From contig JAUHVK010000025.1 in the NCBI GenBank assembly GCA_030425145.1, positions 1-64,000 of the forward strand: a stretch of 64,000 nt of DNA, in the 5' to 3' direction. The stretch is from Alphaproteobacteria bacterium (lineage in GTDB: Bacteria; Pseudomonadota; Alphaproteobacteria; Rhodobacterales; Rhodobacteraceae). A model generated the notes under the pieces. It worked only from the letters and a program-made list of their open reading frames with translations. It was not told the origin of the DNA and ran no database searches. The position numbers and the translations under genes were made by a program. Positions 27,475 through 31,455 of the stretch are shown here, piece after piece. How positions within the stretch are numbered: the first letter of the stretch is position 1; each line of letters begins with the position of its first letter.

Positions 27475-27858
27475 ATGGAACCCGACGACCCAATCAACGT
27501 GCTGGGCGGCCCGCTTCAAGGGTGCTCTACAGAACCGCTCACCGGGTTCTTCCGCGACGGCCATTGCAACACATGCGCTGCCGATCAGGGCAGCCACACA
27601 GTTTGCGCGGTGATGACGGCGGAATTCCTCGCTTATTCGAAATATGTGGGCAACGACCTGAGCACCCCGGTACCGCAATTCCGCTTTCCGGGGCTCAAAC
27701 CCGGCGATCATTGGTGCCTGTGCGCCTCGCGTTTCCTGCAAGCCCATGACGAAGGCTGCGCACCGATGGTGAACCTTACCGCCACGCACAAGCGGGCGCT
27801 GGACATCGTGCCGATGCGGGTTCTGGAGCAATACGACATCAACGCCTCGGAGGCCTGA
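27475..27858 (+). CDS. DUF2237 family protein
   Basis: This 127-aa soluble protein begins NVLGGPLQGCSTEPLTGFFRDG and has repeated Cys (GHCNTCAADQGSHTVC, DHWCLCASRFLQAH), the hallmark of DUF2237. The cysteines may bind a metal. The start at the ATG at 27475 follows a CAGGAGG site and gives the standard family length. It lies 35 bp after the DUF2332 gene and probably ends the pth operon. Function unknown. Confidence 0.85.
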   Translation: MEPDDPINVLGGPLQGCSTEPLTGFFRDGHCNTCAADQGSHTVCAVMTAEFLAYSKYVGNDLSTPVPQFRFPGLKPGDHWCLCASRFLQAHDEGCAPMVNLTATHKRALDIVPMRVLEQYDINASEA

Positions 27859-27864
27859 CGCGGA

Positions 27865-28419
27865 TCAGGAGGCTTTTTCGATCACCGCCGTTGTGTCGCT
27901 TGGCGGCACAACAGCGATTGGCTCGCCCATCAGTTCTTCGATGAAAAGGCTCAGAAGCTGCGGGCGGCCCGACACCCCGGCCTTGCGGTAGATGGCGTTG
28001 GTCTGGGCCTTTACGGTGCCTTCGGAGGTGTTGCGCAATCCGGCAATATCCGCGGTGCTCAACCCCTTGATCGAGAACAGTGCGACGTCCTTTTCCGCCG
28101 GGGTCAGTTCCCATTCAGCGAACCGTTCCTGCAATACATCCATGAAAGCGCCCGAAGCCAACCGCAGGCTTTCCTCGGCCGCGCGCTGACGACGGATCGA
28201 GCGCAGCATGAGCGATGCGCTGACCACCATGCCAAGGATCAGGCCGATCACAGCACCGATCTGCGCAAGTTCGTAATAAACCCAGGCAATGGGTGACGAT
28301 GAAATGCCAAGGATGCTGCCCACGATATCCCACAACAGGAACAGGCCGCTGCACAATTGCAGCGCCAGAAGTGGAAAGAGGACCACCCAGATTCTCACAG
28401 TCCCGTCGAGGCTCCTCAC
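27865..28419 (-). CDS. Membrane-anchored LuxR-type regulator
   Basis: This 184-aa protein has two transmembrane segments (about residues 9-33 and 44-72), a helical linker rich in Arg/Glu (RRQRAAEESLRLA), and a C-terminal LuxR/NarL HTH. The HTH reads LTPAEKDVALFSIKGLS, then IAGLRNTSEGTVKAQTNAIYRKAGV. DNA binding from the inner membrane is implied, with the short external loop as the only possible sensor. It has no receiver or autoinducer domain. The gene lies 9 bp after the first acidic-tail gene on the same strand, suggesting one transcript and a regulatory link. Confidence 0.83.
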   Translation of the reverse strand: MRSLDGTVRIWVVLFPLLALQLCSGLFLLWDIVGSILGISSSPIAWVYYELAQIGAVIGLILGMVVSASLMLRSIRRQRAAEESLRLASGAFMDVLQERFAEWELTPAEKDVALFSIKGLSTADIAGLRNTSEGTVKAQTNAIYRKAGVSGRPQLLSLFIEELMGEPIAVVPPSDTTAVIEKAS

Positions 28420-28428
28420 CGAGGCTGA

Positions 28429-28932
28429 TCAATCGTCGTCATCATCATCGTCGTCATCATCGTCATCATCGTCGTCGTCATCATCGTCGCGATCGTCGCG
28501 GCCGCTGTTGCTGCTGCCGCTGCCGCTGTTGTCCTCGCGGTCGTCATCGCGATCATCATCGTCGTCGTCGTCATCGTCGTCACGACCGCTGTTGCTGCTG
28601 CCGCTGTTGTCATCGCGGTCGTCATCGTCGTCATCACTACTGCCGCTGCTGCTGTCGTCCTCGCGGTCGTCGTCGAGGTCATCATTGTCCGAGCGCTCCA
28701 CGTAGTCCCGCAGGATGGCGCCGGTGGAGGGATTGAGGATGATCTCGCGGCTTCCGCGCGGCCCCGTAGCAACAATTCGCGTACGCCCAAGCAAGGTCCG
28801 CGCAATTCTGATCCGACGATAGCCCTGGCGCTTGAGCTGATTGATCACCTGATCCTCAGCCGTCTGCGCAAGAAGCGTGCCGGGCATCGCCGCGCTGGCG
28901 AGCAGACCTGCCAAAAGCTGTCTTCGTTTCAT
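28429..28932 (-). CDS. Secreted PepSY-like protein with poly-Asp tail, 167 aa
   Basis: A signal peptide (cleavage near LLAQ) is followed by one PepSY-like module (residues about 24-78: EDQVINQLKRQGYRRIRIAR, ending STGAILRDYVE). The tail of about 85 residues is made almost only of Asp, Ser, Asn, Gly, Glu and Arg and ends in an unbroken Asp run. The start follows a GGAGGGAG site. It is a paralogue of the larger neighbour upstream. Such tails bind Ca2+ or other divalent cations in known acidic proteins; that role is inferred here. Confidence 0.75.
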   Translation of the reverse strand: MKRRQLLAGLLASAAMPGTLLAQTAEDQVINQLKRQGYRRIRIARTLLGRTRIVATGPRGSREIILNPSTGAILRDYVERSDNDDLDDDREDDSSSGSSDDDDDDRDDNSGSSNSGRDDDDDDDDDDRDDDREDNSGSGSSNSGRDDRDDDDDDDDDDDDDDDDDDD

Positions 28933-28996
28933 TGTCTCCCTCCAAAAGGCTCCCGCCGACCCGGCGGAAGCCCCTGTTCTTCAGCTATCAGATGGA

Positions 28997-29995
28997 TCAA
29001 TCGTCGTCACTGTCGTCATCGTCGCTGTCGTCGTCATCGCTATCATCGTCGTCGTCGGCATCATCATCGTCGCTGTCGTCATCATCGTCGTCATCATCAT
29101 CGTCGTCGTCACCGCCCGAGCTACCGCTGCGGTCGTCATCACCATCGTCGTCACTACCCGAGCTACCGCTGCGGTCGTCATCATCGTCGTCGTCACTACC
29201 CGAGCTACCGCTGCGGTCGTCATCATCATCGTCGTCACTACCCGAGCTACCGCTGCGGTCGTCACCATCATCGTCGTCACTACCCGAGCTACCGCTGCGG
29301 TCGTCATCACCATCGTCGTCGTCATCATCACGGCCGCTGCTGCGATCATCATCGTCGTCGTCATCGTCGGACCCGGCGCCATCGACAAAATCGCGGTCGC
29401 GGGTACGCACCTCGACTCCGGGGCGGGTGTCGTCATCCGAGTCGACGGTTTCGACTTCCTGCTTGATGACGTCGCCGGTGGCACTGTCAAAGACAGTCTC
29501 GACCTTTTCGGTGCCGCGGATTGCCTCGACCTTGGTCTGCGTCAGACCCGTCTTGACTTCGATACGGGTGAAGCCTTGCTCTTGAAGATCGTTCACAAGC
29601 TGATCGGTCGACGTGCTGCCAGTCGTGACGTTGGCTGTCGTCGTTGTTGTTGTTGTCGATGTGACCGTCGCGCGGCTGTCATCGGACTGGCTGGCAACAT
29701 CGATGAAATCCCGGTCACGGTTGCGGATCTGGACGCCCGGAGTGGTGTCTTCGCCAGCGCGCACACGCTCGACTTCCTGCTTGAGAATGTTGCCGGTGGC
29801 GCGGTCATAGATGACCTCAAGCTTCTGCGTGCCGCGGATCGCCTCGACCTTGATCTGGCCGATGCCATTGTCGATCTCGATGTGTTGGAAACCTTGACTG
29901 GTCAGATCACTGATAATCTGATCGGTTGCGGATTGGGCGAATGCCATTGTCCCTGCGAAGGTCGCTACAACGGCGGAAAGCAATGTCTTTTTCAC
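28997..29995 (-). CDS. Secreted double-PepSY protein with Asp/Ser/Gly repeats, 332 aa
   Basis: The GTG at 29995 is chosen because AAAGGAC stands eight bases before it and the protein then opens with a normal signal peptide ending AFAQ. Two PepSY-like modules follow (about residues 22-76 and 132-186), each ending TG-xx-KQEVE and each trailed by a related TRPGVEVRTRDRDF-type segment. From about residue 205 the chain is an acidic low-complexity region with 14-residue repeats of the type RSGSSGSDD plus Asp, then a terminal Asp/Ser tract. The coding strand is strongly periodic. An exported cation-binding role is likely but unproved. Confidence 0.78.
   Translation of the reverse strand: MKKTLLSAVVATFAGTMAFAQSATDQIISDLTSQGFQHIEIDNGIGQIKVEAIRGTQKLEVIYDRATGNILKQEVERVRAGEDTTPGVQIRNRDRDFIDVASQSDDSRATVTSTTTTTTTANVTTGSTSTDQLVNDLQEQGFTRIEVKTGLTQTKVEAIRGTEKVETVFDSATGDVIKQEVETVDSDDDTRPGVEVRTRDRDFVDGAGSDDDDDDDDRSSGRDDDDDDGDDDRSGSSGSDDDDGDDRSGSSGSDDDDDDDRSGSSGSDDDDDDDRSGSSGSDDDGDDDRSGSSGGDDDDDDDDDDDDSDDDDADDDDDSDDDDSDDDDSDDD
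29118..29340 (-). repeat. 42-bp tandem repeat inside the acidic gene
   Basis: The block GAGCTACCGCTGCGG starts at 29118, 29160, 29202, 29244 and 29286, exactly 42 bp apart, giving five in-frame 14-residue units. The variable part of each unit is a GAT/GAC run. Near-identity of the units implies recent expansion or slippage, which would change length without shifting frame. Confidence 0.9.
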
Positions 29996-30082
29996 TGGTA
30001 AAGTCCTTTCGTGTCCGGTGGCCTGCACATCAGCAGGTACGACGACCCTGACCGCCTCCGTCGCTTCGGGACATTTGCAGAT

Positions 30083-30135
30083 GGTTTAATTCGGGGTCCA
30101 TAAACCCATGCCCCACACGTCTAAACCGAGGTTTA
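30083..30135. promoter_or_regulatory. Cluster of GGTTTA/TAAACC half-sites
   Basis: Upstream of the larger acidic gene, GGTTTA (30083) and TAAACC (30101-30106) form a spaced inverted repeat. TAAACC-GA-GGTTTA (30122-30135) forms a compact one. A further GGTTTA is near 30204. The same arms form GGTTTAG-CT-CTAAACC in front of the malic enzyme gene. This is a candidate operator; no regulator can be named. Confidence 0.35.
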
Positions 30136-30166
30136 TACGGACCCTTGAGGATTTTATGGAAAAGAA

Positions 30167-30196
30167 AAACCCCTCGCACCGGAGAGCGAGGGGTTT
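30167..30196 (-). terminator. Rho-independent terminator after trpB
   Basis: An eleven-pair perfect stem (arms AAACCCCTCGC at 30167-30177 and GCGAGGGGTTT at 30186-30196) is followed on the minus strand by TTTCTTTTCC. It lies 39 bp beyond the trpB stop and separates trpB from the acidic-protein genes. Confidence 0.88.
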
Positions 30197-30234
30197 GATG
30201 TCCGGTTTAGACCGCAAGTTTATGCGGCGGGCCC

Positions 30235-31455
30235 TCAGCCCATGTCGAATCCGAGATGTTTGGCGACCGTGAAGATGTCCTTGTCGCCGCGTCCGCACAT
30301 GTTCATGCAGATGATGTGATCCTTCGGCAGTTCGGGTGCGATCTTCATCACATGGGCCAGCGCGTGGCTGGGTTCGAGTGCCGGGATGATACCCTCGGTC
30401 TCACAGCAAAGCTGGAATGCGGCCAGCGCCTCCTTATCGGTGATCGCAACGTATTCGGCGCGGCCGATGTCATGCAGCCAGGCGTGCTCCGGCCCGATGC
30501 CCGGATAGTCGAGACCGGCGGAAATGCTGAACCCTTCGAGGATCTGGCCGTCCTCGTCCTGCAACAGATAGGTGCGGTTGCCGTGCAGCACGCCGGGGCG
30601 CCCGCCGGTGAGCGAGGCGCAGTGCTCCATCTTTTCGTTCACGCCCTTGCCGCCCGCTTCGACACCGATGATGCGCACGTCTTTGTCGTCAAGGAACGGG
30701 TAGAACAGCCCCATCGCGTTCGAGCCACCGCCGATGGCGGCGATGATGGTGTCGGGCAGACGGCCTTCGGCCTCCATCATCTGTTCCTTGGCTTCCTTGC
30801 CGATGATCGCCTGGAAATCGCGCACCATGGCCGGATACGGGTGCGGACCTGCGACAGTGCCGATGCAGTAGAACGTGTCGCGCACATTGGTCACCCAGTC
30901 GCGCAGCGCGTCGTTCATCGCGTCCTTGAGAGTGCCGCGCCCCGAAGTCACGGGGATAACCTCGGCGCCAAGCAGCTTCATACGGAACACGTTGGGCTGC
31001 TGGCGTTCGACATCGTGCGCGCCCATGTAGACGACGCATTTCAGACCGAACTTGGCGCAGACGGTGGCGGTTGCCACGCCGTGCTGACCGGCGCCGGTTT
31101 CCGCGATGATGCGGGTCTTGCCCATACGGCGGGCAAGGATGATCTGGCCCAGCACGTTGTTGATCTTGTGCGCGCCGGTGTGGTTCAACTCGTCGCGCTT
31201 CATGTAGACCTTGGCACCGCCCAGACGCTCGGACAGGCGTTCGGCATGATAGAGCGGCGACGGACGGCCGACATAATGCTTCCAGAGGAAGTCCATCTCT
31301 GCCCAGAAGCTCTCATCGGTCTTGGCGCGCTCGTACTGTTCTTCCAGTTCGAGGATGAGCGGCATCAGCGTTTCCGAGACGAACCGCCCGCCGAAGATAC
31401 CGAACCGGCCCTTTTCGTCGGGACCGGTCATGAAGCTGTTGAATAGATCGTTCAT
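30235..31455 (-). CDS. trpB: Tryptophan synthase beta chain
   Basis: TrpB is a PLP enzyme that joins indole and serine to make tryptophan. The 406-aa protein has the PLP Lys in the block [12 protein letters not shown] (about residue 97), the [10 protein letters not shown] loop, [13 protein letters not shown] for phosphate binding, and the late [10 protein letters not shown]-type segment, here [16 protein letters not shown]. All catalytic blocks are intact. It is alone here, with trpA about 18 kb away. trpF is not in the window. A strong terminator follows. Confidence 0.97.

Follow-up and report, generated by a model that had tools for sequence, protein, structure and literature searches.

A candidate self-regulated envelope operon joining a membrane LuxR regulator to poly-aspartate PepSY proteins in Rhodobacteraceae

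The first 64,000 nucleotides (nt) of contig JAUHVK010000025.1, from a 4.9 Mb Rhodobacteraceae genome (GCA_030425145.1), are referred to here as the window. They contain an operon of three minus-strand open reading frames (ORFs), arranged in the order operator, PepSY-A, PepSY-B and LuxR. The first two genes encode exported PepSY proteins with poly-aspartate tails, and the third a short LuxR regulator with a two-helix membrane hairpin. The closest named relatives belong to Marivita, in which LuxR identity reaches 92%. As a whole, the locus is best read as a self-regulated envelope operon with a poly-Asp metal buffer, a reading to which we assign a probability of about 0.45. Its parts differ in strength. 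On sequence evidence, self-regulation of the operon by the membrane LuxR through its operator is the best reading and very probably correct, while the metal-buffer step, which is argued from analogy, has about an even chance. The parts themselves (PepSY, the GerE helix-turn-helix) are already known, and it is the combination and the operator that appear to be new. No description of a PepSY/LuxR/poly-Asp operon was found in the searches made of open-licence PubMed Central (PMC) papers, as judged from listings and excerpts.

The candidate operator spans 52 base pairs (bp) and carries four half-sites, TAAAC-N4-GTTTA-N16-GTTTA-N12-TAAAC. Its first half is the palindrome TAAAC-N4-GTTTA (30122-30135) and its second is GTTTA-N12-TAAAC (30084-30105), neither being assigned to a strand. 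Conservation was assessed in 61 promoters, comprising the studied locus and 60 loci from a biased sample, the best 80 of 428 LuxR relatives; these 60 had an acidic protein A found by script and enough sequence, and the other 20 were dropped. CATAAACC occurs in 43 of the 61 stretches, compared with 0.3 expected from shuffling in blocks of two bases, rather than by an exact dinucleotide shuffle. An exact copy of the palindrome is present in 50 promoters, and GTTTA-N12-TAAAC in 36. Spacing is similarly constrained, as the distance from the palindrome to the next TAAAC is 31-34 nt in 47 of the 48 promoters with such a TAAAC, and an exact 33-nt spacing is common to 36 promoters, which yield a long consensus. 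From the end of the palindrome to the PepSY-A start codon the median is 131.5 nt, and it is 129 in the studied operon. Other shared k-mers, such as AAGATGTC, arise because the 300-nt stretches include codons of the neighbouring gene, which we take to be trpB (30235-31455). The promoter stretch of L083 resembles coding sequence.

Each operator half matches only once in the genome, and both matches are at the studied operon (the second half was searched as GTTTAN{10,14}TAAAC). A broad LuxR regulon was looked for and no sign of it was seen: with one mismatch allowed there are 21 genome sites including the exact one, which is rarer than the 74 of the reversed control. The palindrome is also associated with the regulator across genomes. 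It is carried by 53 of 60 genomes with a strong LuxR match, 24 of 65 with no match and 11 of 24 with weak matches only. The difference between the first two groups has a Fisher p of 1.8e-9, which ignores kinship and treats related genomes as independent when they are not. The reversed control pattern has no such excess, with means per genome of 2.6, 3.6 and 1.7, respectively. Among the 75 palindromes listed, 21 sit approximately 0.65-1.7 kb upstream of a LuxR match, and 19 of the 40 listed from strong-LuxR genomes are near one. Twenty stretches around palindromes in relatives were inspected by eye; one of them (L125) adjoins a LuxR relative, and no shared target was seen among the twenty, with one exception. 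This is an exact TAAACTTTGGTTTA palindrome in genome G133 (L109:149-162), which lies 120 nt before a cytochrome-b561-like start, and that frame is a possible further target of the regulator family.

The pairing of PepSY-B with LuxR is conserved well beyond the studied genome. Among the 80 loci of the biased sample, PepSY-B is directly upstream of LuxR in 71 by pattern, and ORF reading adds it in seven of the other nine (L021, where it is cut by the contig edge, L034, L048, L049, L068, L071 and L080). Of the last two loci, L074 retains an acidic fragment alone at the contig edge, and the contig of L045 starts at LuxR. A more even sample consisted of 149 genomes, one per genus of the family. Here, 58 of 62 LuxR profile matches of at least 200 bits have a same-strand PepSY-B match no more than 1.8 kb upstream, and this falls to 8 of 29 at 150-200 bits and 4 of 36 at 100-150 bits. 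Conversely, only 2 of 83 PepSY-B profile matches, which include some A modules and several matches per locus, have no downstream LuxR match. The first-pass annotation, made from the window alone, had named a lack of co-occurrence elsewhere as one half of what would refute it; this half clearly fails: the pairing is conserved across the family, and 59 of 71 PepSY-B tails have an Asp+Glu fraction of at least 0.3. In a class-wide sample of 190 genomes, nine have a LuxR match at E <= 1e-25, three of them in Rhodobacteraceae, and no match outside this family reached 200 bits. Within that sample, the close form of LuxR thus looks confined to Rhodobacteraceae.

LuxR is predicted to be a protein of 177 amino acids (aa; 27865-28398, minus strand). 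Its listed ORF begins at 28419, and several orthologues begin at the codon aligned with the GTG at 28398, which is therefore the probable start. Consequently, the gap to PepSY-B is approximately 30 nt; the 9 bp given by the first-pass annotation holds for the upstream GTG at 28419. The C-terminal domain is above the Pfam GerE cutoff (PF00196; 27.8 vs 23.5 bits), with the helix-turn-helix, including KAQTNAIYRKA, at residues 105-157 (27949-28107, minus strand). The N-terminal part (28192-28398, minus strand) forms a two-helix membrane hairpin with a short loop, as judged from hydropathy, an alignment of 35 sequences and a structure model. Q21, W46 and E50 (184-aa numbering) are invariant in the hairpin region of the 35 aligned sequences, the tryptophan standing at the end of the loop and the glutamate opening the second helix. 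Since only about 8-10 residues of the loop are outside the membrane, sensing probably occurs in the membrane or via a partner. PepSY-B, as the most constant partner, would be the prime candidate for this contact on the evidence of gene neighbourhoods. In the AlphaFold model, a continuous helix (H46-102) runs from the second membrane segment towards the helix-turn-helix, and it may provide a natural signal path.

A quorum-sensing LuxR or a NarL-type response regulator was considered and rejected: Pfam finds no autoinducer-binding or receiver domain at E <= 1, and the N-terminus is a hydrophobic hairpin. Foldseek returned a best E of 0.014 and a list consisting mostly of LuxR/NarL-type DNA-binding domains. 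The model NF047608 (LIC13292 family transcriptional regulator) scores 64.4 bits, short of its curated cutoff of 200, and matches all 35 aligned orthologues at E <= 0.001. This 166-aa model is similar in length to the studied LuxR and aligns over its helix-turn-helix half; the family name does not occur in the open-licence PMC papers searched.

PepSY-A is an exported protein with two PepSY modules and a poly-Asp tail. Its listed ORF reaches an upstream GTG at 30028, and an extent of 28997-29995 (minus strand) is more likely, because the Marivita orthologues begin at the codon aligned with the GTG at 29995, which is preceded by AAAGGA. A Sec-like signal peptide, VKKTLLSAVVATFAGTMAFAQ, is seen by eye at 29933-29995 (minus strand). 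The protein is above the Pfam PepSY_2 (PF13670) gathering cutoff over two stretches (29.8 vs 24.3 bits). Module 1 (29780-29950) is matched by both the PepSY-B family profile (E 3.1e-10) and PepSY_2, and module 2 (29465-29620) by the PepSY-B profile (E 6.3e-7), both on the minus strand. The best match among the sequences of solved structures, an arginine repressor (E 0.00031 over 38 positions), was taken as chance.

PepSY-B (28429-28932, minus strand) is an exported protein with a single module, a poly-Asp tail and an RR signal (MKRRQLL). Its module (28702-28878, minus strand; RTLLGR...REI..NP.TG.ILRD) was delimited by profile match, conservation, profile-profile alignment to the A modules and a structure model. 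In the studied locus it has no Pfam PepSY match at E <= 1 and does not reach the PepSY_2 (PF13670) cutoff. Among 30 family members, matches at E <= 0.1 are weak, with eight to PepSY and eight to PepSY_2 (best E 0.0022; the overlap between the two sets is not given). However weak these are, hhalign aligns the PepSY-B family profile with the PepSY-A modules at E 2.4e-13, and AlphaFold predicts a helix and four strands, with a mean predicted local distance difference test (pLDDT) of 87.5. On sequence and model evidence, PepSY-B is classed as a PepSY relative. Comparison with the sequences of solved structures gave a best E of 0.22. The twin-arginine Pfam model PF10518 scores 12.6 bits, below its 22.7-bit cutoff, and of 71 orthologues 53 have RRx with two hydrophobic residues after it (31 have the strict form RRxF[LIVM]). 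Such a twin-arginine-like signal would fit export after folding. Neither PepSY-A nor PepSY-B matches PepSY_TM (PF03929) or the Pfam hemolysin-type Ca2+-binding (RTX) repeats at E <= 1. The anatomy set out by the first-pass annotation, with one-module and two-module poly-Asp PepSY proteins beside a membrane LuxR, is thereby confirmed by profile matches, tail composition, the GerE match and the hydrophobic hairpin.

Both tails are extremely acidic. That of PepSY-A (28997-29380, minus strand; 127 aa and the stop codon) consists of Asp/Ser/Gly repeats and poly-Asp, with 75 Asp, 26 Ser and 17 Gly, and its DNA contains a 42-nt tandem repeat. The PepSY-B tail (28429-28704, minus strand) has 91 aa, 51 of them Asp, and the stop codon. 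Net charges of the mature proteins are approximately -82 for PepSY-A and -39 for PepSY-B. Runs of eight GAY codons occur at the studied locus and at one other place in the whole genome. GAC and GAT are interleaved within the tails (45:30 in PepSY-A and 31:20 in PepSY-B), and the tails are therefore not a simple one-codon expansion. An origin by chance or as a repeat artefact was rejected on the basis of the mixed Asp codons and the recurrence of tails on two proteins across the family. Long open frames on the plus strand (28289-28736 and 28877-30001) face the poly-Asp tails; they are Ser-rich, His/Arg-rich or Val/Ile-rich and look like by-products of the GAY repeats rather than genes.

Across relatives, the 71 PepSY-B tails have a median length of 70 and a median Asp fraction of 0.45, with Asp at 0.4 or more in 43. 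Of the 71 loci whose upstream sequence was long enough, 58 have an acidic A by script; nine more loci were too short. In four loci (L053, L056, L058 and L071), protein A has by eye a signal-like start and an acidic tail and no clear PepSY module; as these proteins are still acidic-tailed, the tail can outlive the module. Module and tail can both be lost, and the tail is usually retained. The PepSY-less acidic A of L056 (4182-4589) resembles the other poly-Asp protein of the studied genome, on contig C51 (L156:1525-1950), near 'ILA(R/S)DDDDDD..WRDG'. This resemblance, seen by eye, suggests one small acidic family that may serve both contexts.

Related operons differ in both partners, the LuxR helix-turn-helix and the promoter motif. 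A second LuxR of the family is encoded in the same genome (C40:42500-48500, L084), where genes for a small PepSY_2 protein and a cytochrome b561 (Pfam E 1.1e-22, from a Pfam run on the C40 set only) lie before it, and a diverged motif, CTAAACCAGAGTTGCA, lies upstream of this module. The order PepSY, cytochrome b561, LuxR is clear by eye in 8 of 20 sister loci, as well as in four other families of the class (L147, L148, L150 and L151). Beside the L150 module, outside Rhodobacteraceae, an Asp/His-rich stretch is followed by RTX-like Asp/Gly repeats (L150:2673-3464, minus strand; by eye). Promoters were compared for the 13 of 30 sister loci with a clear small PepSY ORF (L085-L088, L092, L094, L096, L098, L100, L102, L103, L149, L152-L155 and L146, the studied locus itself, were left out). 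TRAAC-N4-GTT occurs in 8 of the 13 (mean 0.042 and maximum 1 in shuffles of the same two-base-block type) and continues as GTTRTA in five of these eight; the GTTTA form of the studied operon occurs in none. In the recognition-helix region, 8 of 12 matched sister LuxR proteins have HLN, and all 80 poly-Asp loci have KAQT.

Other neighbourhoods point to iron or redox. The gene of the C51 poly-Asp protein comes after those of a PepSY_2 protein, whose acidic tail is short, and of a ferric reductase, and before that of a PepSY_TM/flavodoxin/NAD reductase. The C51 cluster (L178:555-7678) also has a two-component pair (by eye). A C51-like cluster in another genus (L180) has ApbE, a ferric reductase that is 90% identical and no poly-Asp ORF at the corresponding place. 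In genome G015, a LuxR of the family is immediately upstream of a ferric reductase. Published PepSY systems couple periplasmic PepSY domains to transmembrane electron transfer: PepSY_TM proteins such as FoxB, VciB and CrpH act as metal or ferrisiderophore reductases (the latter in PMC13038864, in excerpt), and flavinylation clusters link PepSY-like proteins to iron reduction (PMC8238504, in excerpt). The likeness lies in the sister loci, which carry cytochrome b561, ferric reductase and PepSY_TM genes, with ApbE added in one relative; the studied proteins, unlike the PepSY_TM reductases, have no PepSY_TM match and their operon has no reductase. The sister loci and the published PepSY proteins are thus reasons to favour a metal role, and not proof of one.

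In the proposed mechanism, LuxR would be anchored in the inner membrane by its hairpin, with its helix-turn-helix in the cytoplasm. We infer that it binds the four-half-site operator in front of the operon that encodes it and controls the amounts of the two exported PepSY proteins, whose folded modules would be the likely contact with the hairpin. The poly-Asp tails may act as a high-capacity, low-affinity periplasmic buffer of metal cations, probably iron or another transition metal and possibly Ca2+. A change in metal load or in free PepSY would then lead LuxR to alter the output of the operon, closing a homeostatic loop with one genomic target by exact sequence. Cation buffering is suggested by the charge of the tails, by the existence of a metal-binding PepSY protein, and by the cytochrome b561 and ferric reductase neighbours of relatives. 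The first-pass annotation had proposed a secreted cation-buffering or sensing system. The operator, which it had not noticed, adds weight to a role in sensing or regulation; cation buffering keeps the standing of a proposal, and strongly acidic tails are missing from a minority of loci.

Several observations weigh against this mechanism. The periplasmic loop of LuxR is too short for a classical sensor domain, and Foldseek found no significant fold match for PepSY-B (best E 0.33, with the C-terminal domain of YpeB and putative periplasmic proteins among the weak matches). Four of the 62 strong LuxR matches are without a PepSY-B match, and no PepSY neighbour was recognised for the LuxR of G015. 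Reversed control patterns of the two operator halves match 7 and 12 times in the genome. A site of such make-up could arise by chance, and the striking point is that the operon has the sole genome site. Among the listed palindromes of strong-LuxR genomes, 21 of 40 are not near a LuxR match, and 5 of 13 sister promoters are without TRAAC-N4-GTT, a pattern that was chosen after viewing the sequences. For the metal step, there is no reductase or transporter in the studied operon. In addition, Asp+Glu is below 0.3 in 12 of 71 PepSY-B tails (weakly acidic tails include those of L060, L073, L077 and the Mameliella loci L025, L033 and L036), and the script detects no acidic A in 13 of 71 loci, a result that for L076 at least is a miss, since ORFs with LLGY-like strings are skipped.

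The most probable alternative is that the operon senses the state of the envelope and that metal is beside the point, with the PepSY modules holding LuxR off as periplasmic inhibitors or chaperones and the tails serving as soluble disordered spacers. The operon persists though 12 of its 71 PepSY-B tails are not strongly acidic, PepSY/LuxR pairing occurs also with small untailed PepSY proteins, and a role in regulating peptidases has been suggested for PepSY domains (Yeats et al. 2004, as cited in the excerpt of PMC3240639). However, acidity is kept in the large majority of tails, Asp codons are interleaved in the studied locus, and the acidic tail outlives the PepSY module in protein A of the four loci named above. 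This alternative is judged unlikely.

A lanthanide- or calcium-handling periplasmic pair, LanP-like in function and with a dedicated regulator, is more improbable. PepSY-A shares its exported, two-module layout (its signal being judged by eye) with LanPepSY/LanP of Methylobacillus flagellatus, a periplasmic protein with acidic metal sites that binds lanthanides (Ln3+) and Ca2+ (PMC11845868, in excerpt). On the other hand, excerpts of PMC11845868 and PMC12482762 mention no poly-Asp tail or neighbouring membrane LuxR, unlike the studied operon, and a survey of methane oxidisers, as excerpted from PMC12482762, places LanP in Gammaproteobacteria. Moreover, no XoxF-like or uptake gene was seen by eye among the ORFs around the operon (XoxF was not searched genome-wide), and the sister loci indicate iron or redox instead. 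Least probable of all is that the tails are tolerated, functionless repeat expansions and that some other regulator, not linked to the operon, uses the operator: Asp repeat length and period do vary among relatives and the operator-LuxR link is a correlation, but acidic tails are met again and again in the family on both proteins, Asp codons are mixed in the studied locus, and the operator halves are genome-unique, associated with LuxR presence and echoed by a diverged motif at sister operons.

The self-regulated envelope operon with a metal buffer can also be set beside better-known systems. ToxR/CadC-type regulators are, like the studied LuxR, single membrane-spanning DNA-binding proteins; their DNA-binding domain is a winged helix and their periplasmic domain is large, whereas the protein studied here has a C-terminal LuxR/GerE domain, a two-helix hairpin and a tiny loop. 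Calsequestrin and the Asp-rich mineral proteins bind Ca2+ with high capacity and are Asp-rich like the studied tails, but they are eukaryotic and are not known to include PepSY modules or a linked regulator.

The operon is bounded by trpB on its upstream side and by a convergent ORF with its end at 27858. A hairpin resembling an intrinsic terminator (30167-30196, minus strand) lies 3' of trpB and upstream of the operon. Between this and the trpB stop are two extra GTTTA/TAAAC half-sites (30205-30222), which are present, whole or in part, in several Marivita loci. No sigma-70-type promoter was found in 27700-30300, and no -10 or -35 element could be assigned there.

At its broadest, the locus may represent an undescribed class of one-component sensor, in which a short two-helix membrane LuxR is combined with an exported PepSY protein and its own co-evolving operator. 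Such a class would span Alphaproteobacteria in two forms, a redox form (PepSY with cytochrome b561) and the poly-aspartate form studied here, which would buffer periplasmic metal in a self-titrating way, much like a bacterial calsequestrin store fitted with its own gauge. This wider proposal is tentative, and we hold it doubtful. If the reading is true, the extremely acidic exported proteins of a widespread bacterial family would gain both a function and a regulator, and poly-aspartate proteins would be linked to the handling of metals and redox in the periplasm. The 52-bp operator, genome-unique by exact sequence, would be a test bed for partner sensing by a membrane LuxR with almost no periplasmic part. 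The tails would, in turn, be natural, regulated examples of genetically encoded metal-binding polyanions.

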